In this document: positions 42,258 to 50,516 of the stretch, piece by piece
Numbering within the stretch: the first letter of the stretch is position 1
How the letters are laid out: the number at the start of each line of letters is the position of its first letter
Assembly (NCBI RefSeq): GCF_008710285.1
Contig: NZ_VYQF01000002.1
Span: forward strand, 496,001-560,000
DNA: 64,000 nucleotides
From: Ginsengibacter hankyongi
Lineage (GTDB): Bacteria > Bacteroidota > Bacteroidia > Chitinophagales > Chitinophagaceae
Reading direction: 5' to 3'
Program-made: the position numbers and the translations under genes
The notes under the pieces: generated by a model
The model's input: only the letters and a program-made list of their open reading frames with translations
The model's database searches: none
Told to the model about the DNA's origin: nothing

Positions 42258-43076
42258 ATGATAAAACGTATTATACCAACATCCGGCGAAGAACTCCCGG
42301 TTATAGGGCTCGGTACCTGGAAATCATTTGATGTTTCCATTGATAAATATCCCGAACTCAAAAATGTGCTTAAAGAATTGCATATTGGGGGAGCCAGACT
42401 AATAAATAGTTCGCCTATGTATGGAAAATCGGAACAGGTGATTGGAGATATAACTGCCGGGATAGACGCAGTTGATAATTTTTTTTATGCTACCAAAGTA
42501 TGGACTACCGGTTTACAGGAAGGCGTCATGCAAATGGAAACTTCCATGGCTAAGATGAAAAGAAAGAAAATGGATCTTATTCAAATCCATAATCTCATTG
42601 ATTGGAAAACTCATTTACCGCAATTGCGCCGCTGGAAAGAAGAAGGCAAAATTCGGTATATTGGTATCACACATTATACTGATGCCTATCATGAAGAACT
42701 GGAGCGCATTATGAGAGCAGAAAAGCCTGACTTCGTACAGTTTAATTATTCTATTATGGCCCGCAATGCAGAAAGGCGTTTACTGGATGCCGCTGCCAGC
42801 CTGGGTATAGACACACTGATCAACCGACCCTTCGGCGAAGGGAGCCTGTTCGCCAAAGTAAGAAATAAGCCTTTACCTAAATGGGCATCTGAATATAATA
42901 TGAAAAACTGGAGCACTTATTTTTTAAAATACATTATTGCAAATCCGGCTGTTACATGCGTAATACCGGCTACTGCCAATCCGCAATATGCACATGATAA
43001 TGTAATGGCTGCTACCGGGAACCTTCCGGATATGTCGGTTAAAAAGAAAATGGTAGATTATTTACATGATTTGTGA
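42258..43076 (+). CDS. Aldo/keto reductase with Asp-to-Asn in the tetrad
   Basis: A 272-residue aldo/keto reductase. ELPVIGLGTWKSFDV opens the barrel; Tyr55 (SSPMYGKSE), Lys80 (YATKVW) and His110 (IQIHNL) of the catalytic tetrad are present. The usual Asp, two to five residues before the YG motif (I-D-T/S-A/S), is Asn50 here (LINSSPMYG). Asp normally tunes the Lys-Tyr pair, so activity may be reduced or altered. It may start a rightward operon with the squalene/phytoene-synthase-like gene 103 bases downstream. Confidence 0.88.
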   Translation: MIKRIIPTSGEELPVIGLGTWKSFDVSIDKYPELKNVLKELHIGGARLINSSPMYGKSEQVIGDITAGIDAVDNFFYATKVWTTGLQEGVMQMETSMAKMKRKKMDLIQIHNLIDWKTHLPQLRRWKEEGKIRYIGITHYTDAYHEELERIMRAEKPDFVQFNYSIMARNAERRLLDAAASLGIDTLINRPFGEGSLFAKVRNKPLPKWASEYNMKNWSTYFLKYIIANPAVTCVIPATANPQYAHDNVMAATGNLPDMSVKKKMVDYLHDL

Positions 43077-43179
43077 CAGGGCGGTTAATGAATTACGCCA
43101 TATCAGTCCTCTGTATGATTAAACTCATAAAATTCTTTATCCTGATTGCCGATTTTCATATCGATAAAAAAATGACTGC

Positions 43180-44067
43180 ATGATGGATTTGGCTGAACAT
43201 GCGAAGAAGATGCGCTTAATTGTATATAAGCATATGCTTAATACTAGAGGTTGGAAATACAAGGCTTTTTTACGATACCTGCGATTTTTCAAATACATAT
43301 CTTTTGCAAAGCGAAGAGGAGAATTCCTGGAGTCTTATTATACACTAATGCGCTACCTTGATGATATTGTTGATGGAGATGCTCCATTACCGAAAGATTA
43401 TGCAAATGGCGTTGATTATATTATTGATAAAATCAAATTCTCTAAGAAGCCCGTTGATCCTATTGACGAAGTCGATTACCTGATGCTTCATTGTTTTAAT
43501 GTGGCAAATAGTTTTGGAGAAGATTTTACTTCAGAAACGGAAGATATTCTTAATTCACTTCTTTTCGATGCACACCGAAAGGACAAATGGATTGTTTTCC
43601 CGGAAAAAGAACTCCAATCACATTTTCATCTCATGGATATAAGAGGTACTATTAAGGCCACTTTAAAAATTTTTAAAGAAGACCCGGATAAATATCATTT
43701 CCTGGAACCCCTGGGTACAGCCAGCCGTTATCAGTATGACCTGGAAGATTTTGAAGATGATATAAAAGCAGGCTATGTAAATATTTCAGCGGAGGATTGC
43801 AGCTTGTTTGGTATTAGTCCGGATGAATTATATGATAAAGATTCTGAAGCTGTAAAAGAATGGTTGCGTTATCACGCACAAAAAGGATTGGATTTACTGG
43901 AAGAGCACCACTGCTTGCTACCTCAGGCAAAATTTTCCTGGCTGGCAAGAGCAACTTTCCCCCTGGTTTATGAATTACCGGCAAAGAAATGTTTTCAAAA
44001 AATACTGGCGGAAATAAAAATATCAGGGATAAAAAATAATGCATGTATTCAGCCTGTGATGGAATAA
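43180..44067 (+). CDS. Squalene/phytoene-synthase-like prenyl enzyme
   Basis: A 295-residue, helical protein of the squalene/phytoene synthase fold. The first aspartate motif is YLDDIVD (residues 59-65, with the family's preceding YYTLMR), and the second is LEDFEDDIKAGYVNIS (188-203), which matches the D-x-x-E-D-x-x-x-G-x-x form of the family. These bind magnesium and prenyl diphosphates. The protein is diverged in between. No carotenoid desaturase, hopene cyclase or prenyl transferase is near, so squalene or phytoene as product cannot be assumed. It sits 115 bases upstream of the methyltransferase/Lgt-like fusion, suggesting a lipid-related pathway. Confidence 0.8.
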   Translation: MMDLAEHAKKMRLIVYKHMLNTRGWKYKAFLRYLRFFKYISFAKRRGEFLESYYTLMRYLDDIVDGDAPLPKDYANGVDYIIDKIKFSKKPVDPIDEVDYLMLHCFNVANSFGEDFTSETEDILNSLLFDAHRKDKWIVFPEKELQSHFHLMDIRGTIKATLKIFKEDPDKYHFLEPLGTASRYQYDLEDFEDDIKAGYVNISAEDCSLFGISPDELYDKDSEAVKEWLRYHAQKGLDLLEEHHCLLPQAKFSWLARATFPLVYELPAKKCFQKILAEIKISGIKNNACIQPVME

Positions 44068-44182
44068 AATACTGAAATATTTTTTGCTGAGAAATGGGTC
44101 AGGGAAGGCTTATAAATTTTTTATGCACAAAAATCCGATAGCATAAAAGTAAACTCCTCTGCTAGGTTAAATTCTTATTAAG

Positions 44183-46078
44183 ATGAAAAAAGAAGAACTA
44201 TCCGGCAAAATTCTTTATGCAATATTATTTCTTGCCTTTATTCCATTGCTGCAATTGTGGTGGGCCCAATCTCTTGAAAATATTGTTCGTTTTCCAGCCA
44301 TTGAATCCCAGGCTGGCGGAATGATCATTGGTATTTCAGGATTACTCCTGATGGGATGGGCTATGTTTTCACTCAAAAAATTTGGTAAGGGCTTGCCCAT
44401 GAATGCTTACCCCCCTGTCCATTTTGTAAAAAAGGGACCCTATCATTTTTTACGCCACCCCATTTACTGGGGTTATTGTATGCTAATGACAGGCGTGTTT
44501 ATTTCTATAGGTTCAGCCGGTGGGCTTTGGATTGTAACCCCCATATCTTTATTGGCCATTATTGCTTTGGTGCTGGGTTATGAAAAGATTGATTTGAAAG
44601 ACCGGTTCAGAGATGCCGATATGTCTGTACTACTGGATATTCCTTCATCTGCTGATTCATTCCCGTCTTTAGTAAAAAGAATAGTTTCAGTTTTTTGGGT
44701 TATAGCACTTTTAATAACTTCAAACTATGTCGTTTGGTTTTTAACTCATGGTTCCACTTCGATATTGCCTGATTCAAGAGGCTTAAAATATTTTAACAGG
44801 CTCAATGGTATTCAATTCCTGGCAGTTCCATTCATTTTGTTGGTGCCTCTTATCGTAAAAAGCAATATCCTTCTTCATCGTTGGGTGATTTCGGTTTTAT
44901 CCGGAATTGCATTGTGTGTTTATATTTCATTACTGTGGCCATCAGTTGGGGCCCAATATTTTTATGCAGGAAACCAGCAAGCGGGTAGTAATGAATCATC
45001 GATTCTTTTAAGTGTTCCCGTTTTTCTTACACTTCTTTCCGCCGCTACCTATAGCCGGCAATTCAAGAAATGGACGTTACCCGTTATGGGTTTCTCAATT
45101 ATTATTATTTTTCTGCAATTAACCAATACCCGCTCTTTTACAGTTAATTTAATTGTGTCTGTTTTTATTTCCCTTGTAACAGCTAATTCTTCCGCTATTT
45201 GGTTGTTTATCCGTAAGACTGCAGAAACAATTGCCAACTCATGGAAAGAATGGATATTCGGTCATGTCAGAATAATCAATCACGGCATTTATGTGGGCCT
45301 GGGAAGTTTTGCCGGTATTCTTTTTTGCGGCTTATTAGTAGGCCAGGCATATGCATGGGGTATTTTGATATTTGCTTTTGTAGTAACTGTTTTTGCAGCA
45401 TTATGGGCGCAGCTCATTGAAGGGTCTGATAAATTGAAAAGACCATTTGGTTATTACGGAGCTTTAGTTGGAATCTTCTTTGCCAGTGCAATACTTTGGT
45501 GGATGGGTTACAATGGGTGGGTGGTTATCGGAGTTATTTCCGTTGTTATGCCATGGGTTCAGGCGACCGGTCGTTTGCGTTGCCTGGTAAATGGTTGTTG
45601 CCATGGTAAACCAACCAGCAATACTAATCTCGGCATCCGTTATTTTCATTCCCGTTCACGGGTTTGCAATATTTCCGGGTTAAAAGGAGAATATCTTCAT
45701 CCTACACAGGTATATTCAATTCTTTGGCTGTTTGTTGTGGGCTTTTTATTACTGGCTTTATGGCTGAATAAATTTTCTTATTCATTTATTTTTGGGATGT
45801 ATCTTATTCTCACCAGTACAGGCCGGTTTGTAGAAGAGGCGTACAGGGGTGAAGTGCAAACTCCTGTTTGGAAAGGATTGCGTTTATATCAATGGGCCGC
45901 TATTTTTTCGGTTATAACAGGAATCGTTTTCACTACAATCAATGTTCAACTGGCAGAACTTCACCCGGGATATGGGTGGGAGATATGGGTGGCAGCACTC
46001 CTTGGCGGATTTTTTATCCTCTTTGCAATGGGAGTAGATTTCCCCCGCTCCAACGCCCGGTTTTCAAGACTGGTATAA
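44183..46078 (+). CDS. Polytopic fusion: ICMT-like methyltransferase end plus Lgt-like end
   Basis: A 631-residue membrane protein with at least 14 hydrophobic segments. Residues about 1-150 resemble isoprenylcysteine/phospholipid methyltransferases: KKGPYHFLRHPIYWGY at 83-98 is the SAM-binding signature. Residues about 160-350 are membrane segments of no family I recognise. Residues about 360-580 resemble prolipoprotein diacylglyceryl transferase (Lgt): RPFGYYGALVG at 420-430, GRLRCLVNGCCHGKP at 463-477, YLHPTQVY at 504-511 and GRFVEEAYRGE at 547-557. Both enzyme types act on lipids or lipidated Cys in the membrane. One chain could therefore transfer and cap a lipid group. Specific substrate unknown. 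Confidence 0.75.
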   Translation: MKKEELSGKILYAILFLAFIPLLQLWWAQSLENIVRFPAIESQAGGMIIGISGLLLMGWAMFSLKKFGKGLPMNAYPPVHFVKKGPYHFLRHPIYWGYCMLMTGVFISIGSAGGLWIVTPISLLAIIALVLGYEKIDLKDRFRDADMSVLLDIPSSADSFPSLVKRIVSVFWVIALLITSNYVVWFLTHGSTSILPDSRGLKYFNRLNGIQFLAVPFILLVPLIVKSNILLHRWVISVLSGIALCVYISLLWPSVGAQYFYAGNQQAGSNESSILLSVPVFLTLLSAATYSRQFKKWTLPVMGFSIIIIFLQLTNTRSFTVNLIVSVFISLVTANSSAIWLFIRKTAETIANSWKEWIFGHVRIINHGIYVGLGSFAGILFCGLLVGQAYAWGILIFAFVVTVFAALWAQLIEGSDKLKRPFGYYGALVGIFFASAILWWMGYNGWVVIGVISVVMPWVQATGRLRCLVNGCCHGKPTSNTNLGIRYFHSRSRVCNISGLKGEYLHPTQVYSILWLFVVGFLLLALWLNKFSYSFIFGMYLILTSTGRFVEEAYRGEVQTPVWKGLRLYQWAAIFSVITGIVFTTINVQLAELHPGYGWEIWVAALLGGFFILFAMGVDFPRSNARFSRLV

Positions 46079-46089
46079 GTTGAAAAAGA

Positions 46090-46112
46090 GTTTCAATTTA
46101 CTCTATTGAAAC
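46090..46112. terminator. Hairpin between convergent genes
   Basis: GTTTCAAT (46090-46097) pairs perfectly with ATTGAAAC (46105-46112) around 7 bases. It sits between the fusion gene and the convergent lipoprotein gene. On the minus strand a short T-run (CTCTTTTTC) follows; on the plus strand the tail is CCCTTTATA. It may terminate both ways. Confidence 0.5.
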
Positions 46113-46166
46113 CCTTTATAATTCCGGTCGAGTGGATTTATTTTAAACTGTGTTCAATAACCCCTT

Positions 46167-47927
46167 TCAATTTGAAGCCTCGTTCATATGTGCAGCTAAA
46201 GACTGCCATTGCTCCATTTCCTGGTACTTCTCTCTTGAAAATCGATCAAATTCGCCTGGTTTTTTAAACTCTTTTAACCTCGATACATTCGCTTTTACAG
46301 GATACGTTTTTTGCATATGGTAATATCCACTTGAAGCAAGAAAATAAGAAATAGTATTATTTTCCAACTTTTCCGGAACCTGGAACCCAAGGCCAATGCT
46401 TTCATCATTATTCAACACAGCATAATTCTTATCTATTTTGGCCACCTGTTCTTTCTGGTCTCCCCTTTGAATATTATAGGCTGAAGAAGGATCCATGGTA
46501 AAGGTCTTGAGTGACTCTGCCGGAGAGTAATCTATTGCTGCATAATCCAGGTCCCAGAACCGGTAAACTGTTTCAAGTTTGATACGAAAATGGGTGCTCT
46601 TATTCTCAGGTAATTTAATTTCCATAACCATATCCCGGTAGCCTTCGGTTCCACTTAAAGGAAAGTATCCCGCATAATCCCATTTTCCCTCATTCTCTAC
46701 ATAAACTTTTATCGGAAGCCCATGCTTTAATAAAAATGCTTTCATCTTCTCAGCGCTTGTGTTTTCCCAATAATCGCGGTGGCGTGAATATTTTTCTCCA
46801 AATAATAAAGTATACTCATCATTTATCGCAGCAGCCCAATTACTATTTTTTGCACGGATCAGTAATCTTGCTTTCCCATTTTCTAATGGTTTTTTGAAAG
46901 TCAGGTATGCTTTTGAAAATTCTTCTTTAGGGTTGTATGTATTGAACGCAAACGTATTCCCATCCGCCCTGCTTAAAGTCTCCTTTAAATCCCGGCCGTC
47001 AGGCACCGTCACTGCCTCTGGAAGCTCTGGATGGCTTATTGCATAAAATTTACCATTTCCATCAACGGTTATCTGTGAACCTGGCCTGTGGTATACACCA
47101 ATGAGTTGGGCTGAATTGAGGAATTGAATTTCGTTGTCATGGCCGGATATACGCAAACGGATGTCAGAATTTTCAGGTTGTAAATCTCCAAGCGGAAGAT
47201 AGTCAATCCGCTCAAGGTTGGCATACACAGCACCGCTGAAAATACCATTCTGAAAATCAAAATTCCCTTTTTGTTCTACATATACCTGTGGGCAGCCGCA
47301 TTCACCATTCGTTGTGGAACTAGGTGGAGGAGATGATACACCACCACCTCCTGATCCTGCCGCAAGAACCACAACAACCAGTGCAACGCCAGCTGCTATC
47401 CCAACAATACTCAACACGATGCTCGAGTTGGTCTTTTTTTTGTTAAATTCATAAACATCCATCCTATATATATCCGAAAAAGGGATTTTTACCGCTGGAT
47501 ATTCTGTACTAGCCGACTTCTTATAATTAACATAGAGATGCACTTCTGACAACAGGGAAGCTTCATTTTTATTTTTGAGAGGAAGGGCTTCATTACTCTC
47601 TGGATACAATCGGGTGGTATGTTCTTTCAGCAATGGTCCGCTTTTTCCTTCAATTGCATTGTTGTTAATGGAGACATTTGAAAGTGCCAAAAGGGAGTCT
47701 TGATAGTGTATAATAAAATATTTATTGGCGTTCTTCAGTTTTTCAATTGTGGTTGAATCAGCAGAAGTGGTTGTTCCGGTAGAATAAAATTTTTTAAAAC
47801 ATCCTGCAAGAATAAGCATCCCTAAAACCAGTAAAATGTACAATTTTCCTCTCCACCTTACAACAAGTAGCAATGGAAAGAAAAATAAGGTAGTGTAGCG
47901 TGACAAGCGGGGAATAATCGGTTTCAT
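46167..47927 (-). CDS. Large lipoprotein with second membrane segment and LERIDYLPL domain
   Basis: A 586-residue envelope protein. A lipobox (LILAGC, Cys43) follows an unusually long leader, so the true start may be an internal codon nearer the hydrophobic stretch. A second hydrophobic segment (SSIVLSIVGIAAGVALVVVVLAAG, about residues 168-191) is followed by a Gly/Ser/Pro linker and a Cys pair (GECGCPQVY). Then comes a beta-rich region with YANLERIDYLPLGDLQPENSDIRLRIS, a stretch I recognise from other uncharacterised Bacteroidota lipoproteins. No catalytic motif is evident. It lies 124 bases downstream of the radical SAM gene on the same strand, so the two may be functionally linked. Confidence 0.6.
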   Translation of the reverse strand: MKPIIPRLSRYTTLFFFPLLLVVRWRGKLYILLVLGMLILAGCFKKFYSTGTTTSADSTTIEKLKNANKYFIIHYQDSLLALSNVSINNNAIEGKSGPLLKEHTTRLYPESNEALPLKNKNEASLLSEVHLYVNYKKSASTEYPAVKIPFSDIYRMDVYEFNKKKTNSSIVLSIVGIAAGVALVVVVLAAGSGGGGVSSPPPSSTTNGECGCPQVYVEQKGNFDFQNGIFSGAVYANLERIDYLPLGDLQPENSDIRLRISGHDNEIQFLNSAQLIGVYHRPGSQITVDGNGKFYAISHPELPEAVTVPDGRDLKETLSRADGNTFAFNTYNPKEEFSKAYLTFKKPLENGKARLLIRAKNSNWAAAINDEYTLLFGEKYSRHRDYWENTSAEKMKAFLLKHGLPIKVYVENEGKWDYAGYFPLSGTEGYRDMVMEIKLPENKSTHFRIKLETVYRFWDLDYAAIDYSPAESLKTFTMDPSSAYNIQRGDQKEQVAKIDKNYAVLNNDESIGLGFQVPEKLENNTISYFLASSGYYHMQKTYPVKANVSRLKEFKKPGEFDRFSREKYQEMEQWQSLAAHMNEASN

Positions 47928-48051
47928 ATATCAATATTTTTAAAAGTGATTAATCTTATTTTAGTCAAGAGTTCAGTTGTAAGCACATAGGCCAAATGGC
48001 AGATCATTTTTGTAAAAAGAAGATTCAGAAAAGATTTCTCCGATCCCGGGC

Positions 48052-49314
48052 CTATCGGTGGAGCTGAAGTGTTTTAGCTGAATCTTTGGATTTGGAAGTA
48101 AATTCGATCATGGAACAACCGGTTTCTCTTAAGGAACGAATGTTTTTTTCCAGGATGGTGGAGGATGCCGGGAATAACTTTTTTTTATTGAATGGGCAAG
48201 CATGTACAAACCCATCGGCATCAATATAAACAAAATGAAGTCCGCTTGCGGGGCACCCGTTATGCCTTTTTATCATGGCCGGATAACTGGCAATCGGGTA
48301 TCCGGAATAAGAAGCATCGAAATTTAAGCGGTAAAAAAAATGTTCCAGGAGTTCTTTGTTCTTTTTATTGAGAGCTACATTCTTTTGCCGGTAATGCCCC
48401 ACCGCTTCTGGTTCCAGGAATTGAATGAATGATGCTCCTGCTTCCCGGCAAACACTGGCGTAAGACTCCAGGTTATTCATCGATATGAATTCATTAGTTG
48501 CGCAGCAGGAAAATGCAAGTAACAACCCGCTGTCAACAACATGTTGTGCGGACTGCAAGGCTCTTTGGTAAGAACCCCGAATACCCCTGAATTGATCATG
48601 TCTTTCCTGCTCATGATGATCAAGACTGATAATGACGCCTGTCATTCCATGTTCTTTTAATCGTGCAGCCTTTTCAGCAGATAAATTATACCCGTTGGTA
48701 AATACCCAAAAGTCAATTCCTTCAGGAACAGAATCGAGTATAAAAAGAATATCGTCCAGTCTGTTCAGTGGTTCTCCACCACTGAGATGTACCTGCGAAA
48801 TGCCCATATGATGAAAACGCCTTATGATTGTAACAAGGTCATAAGCAGATAAGCTATCCTTCCTGTTCAGATTTTCCCATTCAACGCAATGTTCACATTG
48901 AAACCCACATTTATTCGTAATTGCAAAAACAACTGAAAACAATGAAATGTCCGGGCTTTGGGAAACTAAATTAAATGAATGATGTATGCCGCGGTTGAAA
49001 GCCTTCGAAGGCCAACCCGGGGTATGTAAATTCATATAATATTTATTAGCCCTTTTGGCAATTTTTGGATGTGTAGTTTTAAACTGGTCCCTTGTATTAA
49101 TAACTTTCGCTGCGAGATGAAAGGCCCTCCATGGATTTTTGTATCGCAATAGTGCAAGCCATACAACGTTCATCCCTATTAGCAGGCTTGCAAGTCGGTA
49201 TTCCAACCCGGCTACAATTTTATTGTTCTTAGTTTTGTTAGAAGAAAATTTGTTAGAAGCATTCTTATTTACGCCCGGCTTTTTCATCTTGAAAGTTTTG
49301 CAACGAAAATTCAT
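48052..49314 (-). CDS. Radical SAM protein with SPASM-like C-terminus
   Basis: A 420-residue radical SAM enzyme. The cluster motif is CGFQCEHC (C-x3-C-x2-C, about residues 136-143), followed by LSGGEPL (SAM contact) and VFTNGYNLS. The C-terminal part has GCPASG and VHACPF, two Cys sites resembling a reduced SPASM/twitch domain that holds an auxiliary cluster. About 100 basic residues precede the core and include a hydrophobic patch (LASLLIGMNVVWLALL), suggesting membrane association. I use the ATG at 49314. SPASM proteins commonly modify peptides; no clear precursor peptide gene is seen beside it. The neighbouring lipoprotein and Lgt-like fusion make lipid or lipoprotein targets possible. Confidence 0.85.
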   Translation of the reverse strand: MNFRCKTFKMKKPGVNKNASNKFSSNKTKNNKIVAGLEYRLASLLIGMNVVWLALLRYKNPWRAFHLAAKVINTRDQFKTTHPKIAKRANKYYMNLHTPGWPSKAFNRGIHHSFNLVSQSPDISLFSVVFAITNKCGFQCEHCVEWENLNRKDSLSAYDLVTIIRRFHHMGISQVHLSGGEPLNRLDDILFILDSVPEGIDFWVFTNGYNLSAEKAARLKEHGMTGVIISLDHHEQERHDQFRGIRGSYQRALQSAQHVVDSGLLLAFSCCATNEFISMNNLESYASVCREAGASFIQFLEPEAVGHYRQKNVALNKKNKELLEHFFYRLNFDASYSGYPIASYPAMIKRHNGCPASGLHFVYIDADGFVHACPFNKKKLFPASSTILEKNIRSLRETGCSMIEFTSKSKDSAKTLQLHR

Positions 49315-49666
49315 CACACATCATTCAACCTAAGCTGGTGGTCAATATTACCATCCCACCTATCCGCTTTAACCGCCCGCAATTTTGTGCAATTTTGTGA
49401 TATTTTTTTTATGTTTCAATGACCAAATCACTATAAAAAGATGATACAAGTCATATTAATGGTTACATTCTCTGTTGAAACCGGGAACTGCTGGAAGAGA
49501 AATGTGAAGTAGAAGAATTGAAAATGTCCAACCGGAATCATCAGATGCACTCACATTTGTCAGTAATGATAAAAAGTTTTTTTAGCGTCTTTGAGAAATT
49601 AACTTCTTTATATACCAATTTCATTCCTTTGAATTACTGCAAATTTAAATTTCAAAAAAAATTAAT
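49315..49666. other. Intergenic region between radical SAM gene and UpxY remnant
   Basis: About 350 bases without a convincing gene. A 72-codon frame at 49518-49736 has no family features and overlaps the UpxY remnant in another frame. The stretch probably contained the leader and promoter of the antiterminator gene and the promoter of the radical SAM gene. I see no hairpin or box that I can defend. Confidence 0.4.
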
Positions 49667-50143
49667 ATGCAGAAGAACTGGTACGCAGTATATACGAAAC
49701 CTCACTGCGAAAAGAAAGTCTCACTTTTACTGGTAAAAAGAGGAATTGAAAATTTTTACCCTGTTAATTAACATAAGTCTCATACTTTTTATACGAAGAT
49801 TCTACATGAACCTTTATTTAAATCTTATGTCTTTGTAAGAACTACCAGGCATGATATTATCAATCTGAGTAAAAAAACAGACTGTATTTTAAGCCTTCTT
49901 TATTTTATGAATGAGCCTGCAATAATCGATGGGGATGAAATAAATGAATTAAAGGATTCTCAAAAAATCACAGGGAACTTAAGCTCGAAAAACTATATAT
50001 GAACTTAAAAGGTGTTCAAAATAGTAGTGATGCTGTCACATATAGGATGGATGGGAAAAATTTGATTATAAAAAACAGGGTAATCAAAGTTAACTTGCCA
50101 TCCATTGGTTATACTATGGTTGCAAAAACTGAAGACAAAATAT
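49667..50143 (+). pseudogene. Decayed UpxY/NusG-type antiterminator
   Basis: From the ATG at 49667 the frame reads MQKNWYAVYTKPHCEKKV, then GIENFYPVN, the exact opening of UpxY-type NusG paralogues. A TAA at 49769 interrupts it at codon 35. In the same frame the homology continues with HEPLFKSYVFVRTTRHDI and FMNEPAIIDGDEI. A frameshift near 49990 then moves to another frame, where the KOW-type end appears: KNRVIKVNLPSIGYTMVAK. The segment between is shortened. An intact gene would bind RNA polymerase and let it read through a long operon, typically capsule or surface-polysaccharide genes. The nonsense codon, frameshift and loss make it non-functional. Confidence 0.85.
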
Positions 50144-50516
50144 TATGGGTAGAGAAATATTCTTTAGCAATAAGGAGTTTCTGGTACAATCATAAATTGA
50201 ATTATTCGGAACTTTGTATCCCCATCGGGCTTCCAACAATAATATGCAAATATCACTGAATCGTTTTACCAAAAGGCATTAAAGAAATTTCTACCAGCGT
50301 AAAATGCTGGCGTGCAAATGGGATACTGCTAATGGTAATAAATAAAATAATACCGAAGAAAATATGAACCAGCGCAGGGCAACCCGCAGCACGACGGCCA
50401 GATGGTACTGCAGAATAAATTAAGGCAGTTACTAATTTGAGCCGCGTATTTCCGGATCTAAATCATTTCTCTTTTCTACTTATCTTACATACCCTTTCTC
50501 CTCTAAAGCTCTGCTC
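50144..50516. other. Gene-free stretch between UpxY remnant and ggt
   Basis: About 370 bases. The frame of the UpxY C-terminal end continues to 50259 without further family similarity. After that I see no gene, hairpin or repeat. The operon an UpxY protein would normally control is missing here, which suits a deletion scar, but no end point can be fixed. Confidence 0.4.

Follow-up and report, generated by a model that had tools for sequence, protein, structure and literature searches.

Here, we describe a small gene cassette of Ginsengibacter hankyongi (Bacteroidota, Chitinophagaceae) that encodes a squalene/phytoene-synthase-like enzyme (SQS-like) and a large membrane fusion protein with a methyltransferase-like and an Lgt-like half. 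It lies in a stretch of 64,000 nucleotides (contig NZ_VYQF01000002.1, positions 496,001 to 560,000), hereafter called the window. Gene order and sequence comparison give good support to the view that both genes are members of a rare operon found within the Bacteroidota, the core of which consists of the fusion and a protein without a known family (the orphan protein). Our leading, though still tentative, reading is that the SQS-like gene and the fusion represent a derived form of a small specialised-lipid operon, in which the membrane enzyme would transfer a lipid group and methylate the product; support for the operon itself is good, and its chemistry we infer. The Lgt-like half would activate a glycerolipid via a conserved Arg pair and pass the lipid on to some acceptor that is not the ordinary prolipoprotein, the methyltransferase half would methylate the resulting product, and a PAP2 domain, or in the subclade of the window an SQS-like enzyme acting on prenyl diphosphates, would supply or trim the lipid chain. 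The companions of the operon would accordingly differ between genomes, being a PAP2 domain, an SQS-like gene, or a cytochrome P450 together with a decarboxylase.

Both halves of the fusion score over the cut-offs of their Pfam families (Table 1). The first-pass annotation of the window had already called it an ICMT-like/Lgt-like fusion, which holds for these two parts, and had no means to see a third, decayed PAP2-like segment between them. Key residues of the Lgt-like half were mapped via the separate Lgt encoded elsewhere in the host genome (118.3 bits), itself aligned to Escherichia coli Lgt (5azb): R143, R239, E243, and R246 of the E. coli enzyme correspond to R464, R548, E552, and R555 of the fusion, and all four are kept. 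In a study of this enzyme, changing these residues or H103 abolishes activity, or the residues are termed critical (PMC4728403). At the position of H103 the fusion has Tyr, which we rejected as proof that it is no Lgt, because the separate Lgt of the same genome also has Tyr there. This separate Lgt could do the housekeeping lipidation. In the methyltransferase half, the block GxGLPMNAxPP is present in nine of the ten fusions compared and deviates in the tenth (genome G783), while PIY is found in all ten. A stand-alone Lgt-like gene was seen at a further locus (L122, 8909-10722; contig C9 of G175), where it overlaps an open reading frame (ORF) that resembles by eye a UbiA-type prenyltransferase, within a series of ORFs that resemble glycosyltransferases, epimerases, and desaturases, likewise named by eye.

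Relatives of the fusion are scarce. Among 195 genomes of the family, 18 have a match (E<=0.001): the host genome itself (G000; 5.5 Mb, with the window on contig C12), G141 with a full-length relative of 70% identity, and 16 genomes with partial matches. A profile built from three fusions found matches in 10 of 395 genomes of the phylum (E<=1e-10), eight with full-length and two with partial proteins. The eight are G000, G465, which belongs to another class, and six new genomes, and G141 adds one from the family sample. One partial match (G462) is a protein of 179 aa that covers the methyltransferase part alone, the other (G783) a shorter methyltransferase-Lgt fusion without PAP2. An initial contig scan with the fusion found no relatives, a weak negative since the genome search later found some; neither the fusion nor the SQS-like protein had plasmid matches. 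The ten fusion loci compared here are those of G000, G141, G465, the six new phylum genomes, and G783.

At nine of these ten loci the gene for the orphan protein (257-295 aa, no Pfam family) lies beside the fusion or one gene away, the window being the exception, a gap that the first-pass annotation likewise had no means to see. It directly precedes the fusion at eight loci, and in G783 it stands one gene before it. The two frames overlap or abut at six loci, and are 162 bases apart in G141. At all six new loci the fusion comes immediately after the orphan gene, with an overlap or a gap of a few bases, and no SQS-like gene was found in the stretches fetched around them. The order in G141 is SQS-like gene, orphan gene (274 aa), and fusion. 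In G465 the same three genes are consecutive, the first two overlapping by 1 base and the fusion following after a gap of 40 bases. Searches of Pfam, NCBIfam, and PDB with the orphan family returned nothing notable. The run in G783 (L121, 6417-12860) comprises a distantly related orphan gene (49.9 bits), a P450, the fusion, an ABC ATPase, a membrane protein, and a pyridoxal-phosphate-dependent decarboxylase, and looks, from its gene content, like a small-molecule cluster. We took its membrane protein for an ABC permease; it has no transporter match in Pfam. A tree of Lgt domains left the placement of the G783 fusion with the other fusions unsettled.

The SQS-like protein is assigned to the squalene/phytoene synthases because a profile of its four members matches the solved phytoene synthase 5iys (E 7e-4) and the protein at locus L044 (E 1.2e-7), an ordinary PF00494 protein with 268.6 bits, and because it carries both Asp motifs, the first present in all four members and the second conserved in all four as DL.D.E.D. 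The motif comparison included two ordinary PF00494 proteins, those of L044 and L047. The predicted fold of the SQS-like protein is helical, with a mean pLDDT of only 41.3. True relatives were found in G141 (76% identity to the window copy), in G465, and at L030, a locus of a Bacteroidota metagenome-assembled genome (MAG). The orphan gene adjoins each of these three, and every one of the four members found adjoins the orphan gene or the fusion. L030 was the one locus found (54% identity) in a contig scan with the pair of proteins from the window and G141; its SQS-like gene is followed by an orphan-type gene of 268 aa, and the contig ends ~0.2 kb further, before the place of the fusion. Searched against 298 genomes of the order, the SQS-like protein matched solely the host genome, with G141 not among the listed matches. 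Against the 395 phylum genomes the pair found G000, G465, and a weak match in G540 (22.8 bits), which was rejected as a member since it is an ordinary PF00494 protein (211.7 bits). Among 244 genomes of the class of G465 the profile matched 26, G465 alone strongly and the other 25 at 19-33 bits; the one of these 25 put to Pfam is the L044 protein. We rate the SQS-like gene as a putative accessory component of the operon, observed in a single subclade.

The same subclade stands out in the middle of the fusion. Six of the ten fusions match PAP2_3 (PF14378) in mid-protein with 33.9-48.8 bits (cut-off 27) and carry the motifs FP[SA][FY]H and G.H...D. The match and the catalytic motifs are absent from the fusions of the window, G141, and G465, which are the ones found with an SQS-like gene, and the motifs are also absent from that of G783. 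A tree of the nine fusions other than G783 separates the PAP2-intact six from the SQS-accompanied three by one branch (100/100). A bolder proposal, which we consider rather unlikely as a whole, makes the methyltransferase(-PAP2)-Lgt-like fusion a new class of membrane lipid-tailoring enzyme: together with the orphan protein it would assemble an unknown methylated lipid on something other than a prolipoprotein, and a prenyl synthase would, in one subclade, have replaced a lost phosphatase domain. To our knowledge, a single reaction is established for chemistry of the Lgt type, the transfer of diacylglyceryl to lipoproteins. An Lgt-like domain joined to a methyltransferase, often to a lipid phosphatase domain as well, and accompanied by an orphan protein at nine of ten loci would hint at a second use of this chemistry and at an unknown lipid of Bacteroidota. 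The recurring core of orphan gene and fusion makes a small, testable unit. Searches of open-access papers yielded no description of the operon, no paper combining PAP2, prolipoprotein diacylglyceryl transferase, methyltransferase, and fusion protein, and none combining phytoene synthase, prolipoprotein diacylglyceryl transferase, and gene cluster; given the literature covered, these are weak absences.

Several observations weigh against the specialised-lipid reading. The loss of PAP2 and the presence of the SQS-like gene amount to a single evolutionary event. The fusion of G783 is PAP2-less, yet no SQS-like gene is present in the 18 kb fetched around it, so the loss of PAP2 does not require an SQS-like gene; this counter-case lowers the odds of the bolder proposal, and the odds of the specialised-lipid reading do not rest on it. 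The Arg of the RHP motif is kept in three of the ten fusions, the window included, and replaced in seven, and methyl transfer is therefore not assured. Both fold predictions are of low quality and not usable for a structure search. The core orphan gene is missing from the host genome, and the window copy may therefore be on its way out.

The missing orphan gene raises the question of decay. The operon that G000 inherited may have shed its orphan gene and its PAP2 activity, leaving enzymes that are non-functional or repurposed. We hold this to be unlikely. In its favour, the orphan gene has no copy anywhere in the genome and left no trace within 10 kb around the locus, and the PAP2 motifs are lost. 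Against it, the SQS-like and fusion frames are both intact and appear constrained relative to G141 (NG86; SQS-like, dN 0.193, dS 1.785, ratio ~0.11; fusion, dN 0.209, dS 1.540, ratio ~0.14). The dS of 1.5-1.8 is near saturation, which makes these ratios rough, and they average over all the time elapsed since G000 and G141 diverged, but they indicate constraint. The PAP2 motifs are equally missing from the fusions of G141 and G465, yet both genomes retain the orphan gene. For the two genes that follow the fusion in the window, the same comparison gave dN 0.135 and dS 0.836 (radical SAM) and dN 0.206 and dS 1.127 (lipoprotein), which likewise indicate constraint.

A second alternative is a maturation resembling that of CAAX proteins. 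The fusion would put a diacylglyceryl or prenyl group on a Cys of a peptide or protein and methylate it, and a neighbouring peptidase would trim the product. The union of ICMT/PEMT-like and Lgt-like halves in one protein suits such a scheme, one Cys of the orphan protein is invariant in all ten members, and a peptidase lies directly 5' of the cassette at five of the ten orphan-gene loci. These five peptidases belong to five different families, namely M64 (L115), Rce1-like (L117), trypsin (L118), M24 (L120), and M14 (L030), and the frequency of peptidases has no measured base rate to be set against. The other 5' neighbours are a sugar transporter (L034), a protein without Pfam match (L119), a beta-lactamase-family protein (L121), and at L023 a C45-type hydrolase in the opposite direction; L116 was not scanned. 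No gene for a substrate peptide was recognised, though no tool-based search was made for one. A simple hydropathy scan shows no membrane-spanning segment in the orphan protein of L030, whereas Lgt is thought to act at the periplasmic face of the membrane (PMC4728403). We regard this scheme as unlikely too, a little more so than decay.

The SQS/PSY homology of the SQS-like gene also allows a variant carotenoid or hopanoid pathway, in which the enzyme would make a C30 or C40 hydrocarbon and the orphan protein would be a CrtC-like hydratase. The orphan profile indeed has a weak match to CrtC (score 26.5 with P 0.011, against 22.7 for the best of 30 column shuffles). In hhalign the match is not significant (probability 4%), and none of the ten orphan members matches CrtC (PF07143) in Pfam. 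With this and the database searches described above, a hydratase role is not proved and was not adopted. Moreover, G000, G141, and G465 each own a separate, ordinary PF00494 gene elsewhere. We judge such a pathway improbable. In G000 and G141, an ORF that looks by eye like a desaturase adjoins this ordinary gene.

Downstream of the fusion, on the other strand, lie genes for a lipoprotein and a radical SAM protein. The first-pass annotation had taken these two, the SQS-like gene, the fusion, and a preceding aldo/keto reductase as one candidate locus for making a prenyl or other lipid and attaching it at the membrane. On the distribution of their relatives, the lipoprotein and radical SAM genes are predicted to be a separate pair, neighbours rather than parts of the operon. 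Relatives of the radical SAM protein (E<=1e-50) occur at 12 loci in 10 of the 195 family genomes, the window included. At 11 of the 12 a lipoprotein gene adjoins the radical SAM gene or lies within ~1.2 kb (the window, two places in G141, and eight of nine others). The exception is L084 in G063, where sulfotransferase and aminotransferase genes precede the radical SAM gene. Neighbours put to Pfam included two desaturase-family proteins (L086, L087) and two sulfotransferases (L079, L084). L086 (4850-7780) is a second lipoprotein/radical SAM pair on contig C12 of the host genome, outside the window, with a gene of the fatty-acid-desaturase family directly after the radical SAM gene.

A full-length fusion is absent from eight of the 10 family genomes that have the radical SAM protein, and a close relative of the latter is absent from G465 and the MAG genome (best match 48 bits). 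The only family genomes with a full-length fusion, G000 and G141, both have a close form of the pair nearby, the one result that favours a link between the two modules. In G141 the pair stands ~19 kb away from the fusion, oriented relative to it as in the window, where the modules are adjacent, so the modules may share a history. A relative of the aldo/keto reductase was found in one of 21 stretches around either module (L119, 28.2 bits; L121 and L122 left out), and this gene is probably not part of the operon. A locus made up of all five genes is not supported. The proposed theme of prenyl and acyl lipids is supported for two of them, the SQS-like and fusion genes, and these occur together in G141 and G465; for the lipoprotein as acceptor of a prenyl group or other lipid there is no support. 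A single five-gene pathway with radical SAM chemistry, for which the adjacency in the window and the arrangement in G141 could be cited, is highly improbable and was rejected in view of the pair's own linkage, the radical SAM genomes without fusion, the missing radical SAM relatives in G465, the MAG, and the stretches around the six new fusions (only those stretches were searched, not whole genomes), and the unconserved aldo/keto reductase.

The five ORFs are real genes with the coordinates and strands first given for them, and Pfam agrees with the domains then named, except that the SQS/PSY call scores under its cut-off (Table 1). The GC content is 0.37-0.39 over 42-50 kb and 0.34-0.42 across the window, so the locus shows no break in composition. 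A promoter pattern of Bacteroidota matched twice against 6.5 expected and is not informative. Further on, at 49667-50260, an ORF whose start presumably resembles that of a NusG-like antitermination gene is broken up by stops.

Table 1. Genes, domains, and motifs of the locus, in window coordinates.
Feature	Position	Strand	Basis or remark
Aldo/keto reductase (AKR)	42258-43076	+	PF00248, 95.9 bits
SQS-like gene (squalene/phytoene-synthase-like)	43180-44067	+	PF00494, 20.8 bits (below cut-off of 26)
First Asp motif DDIVD (aa 61-65) of SQS-like	43360-43374	+	in 4/4 members
Second Asp motif DLEDFEDD (aa 187-194) of SQS-like	43738-43761	+	DL.D.E.D in 4/4 members
Membrane fusion gene	44183-46078	+	PF04191, 34.8 bits; PF01790, 78 bits
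PEMT/ICMT-like domain (aa 45-130) of fusion, GKGLPMNAYPP and RHPIY	44315-44572	+	Pfam (PF04191 cut-off 25); RHPIY gives the HPxY motif; motifs compared in 10 fusions
Decayed PAP2-like segment (aa 271-322) of fusion, catalytic motifs lost	44993-45148	+	alignment and motif comparison with relatives
Lgt-like domain (aa 416-584) of fusion, GRLRCLVNGCCHG and GRFVEEAYR	45428-45934	+	PF01790 (cut-off 24.9)
Lipoprotein gene	46167-47927	-	lipobox LAGC at 40-43; no Pfam family over cut-off; pairs with radical SAM gene
Radical SAM gene	48052-49317	-	PF04055, 66.9 bits
CxxxCxxC motif (aa 137-144) of radical SAM protein	48886-48909	-	

Compared with known systems, each component resembles a described family and departs from it. 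The lipoprotein and radical SAM pair shares with TIGR04133, which we take from its name to denote a radical SAM protein with a lipoprotein, a SPASM-type radical SAM protein beside a lipoprotein, and differs in scoring 48.8 bits against a cut-off of 425, with three relatives at 36-68 bits. Like squalene and phytoene synthases (PF00494), the SQS-like protein has both Asp motifs and distant profile matches to the family, but it falls below the Pfam cut-off, reaches 12.5 bits against the 250 of HpnC, and is linked to the orphan gene and the fusion instead, with no carotenoid gene recognised adjoining it. Phytoene-synthase-like prenyltransferases of indole alkaloids act on small molecules, according to one report (PMC10156859). 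The PAP2_3 phosphatases and phosphotransferases (PF14378) are represented over cut-off in the six fusions without an SQS-like gene, whereas their catalytic motifs are lost in the fusions of the subclade of the window. With the PEMT/ICMT-type membrane methyltransferases (PF04191, PF04140) the fusion has in common a score over the PEMT cut-off and the two motifs of Table 1, and the relative in G783 matches the solved ICMT 4a2n (E 0.005); it differs in that the window protein stays under the ICMT cut-off (20.7 bits against 24) and in the frequent replacement of the RHP Arg. As for Lgt (PF01790), the phosphatidylglycerol:prolipoprotein diacylglyceryl transferase, the fusion keeps the family match and the four key residues, but scores far under the cut-offs of the equivalog models (NF000778, 72.3 against 334 bits; TIGR00544, 43.1 against 118.9 bits; the separate Lgt of the genome was not scored with either). 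It is further set apart by its signature GRLRCLVNGCCHG and by the position of its Lgt-like domain behind a methyltransferase.

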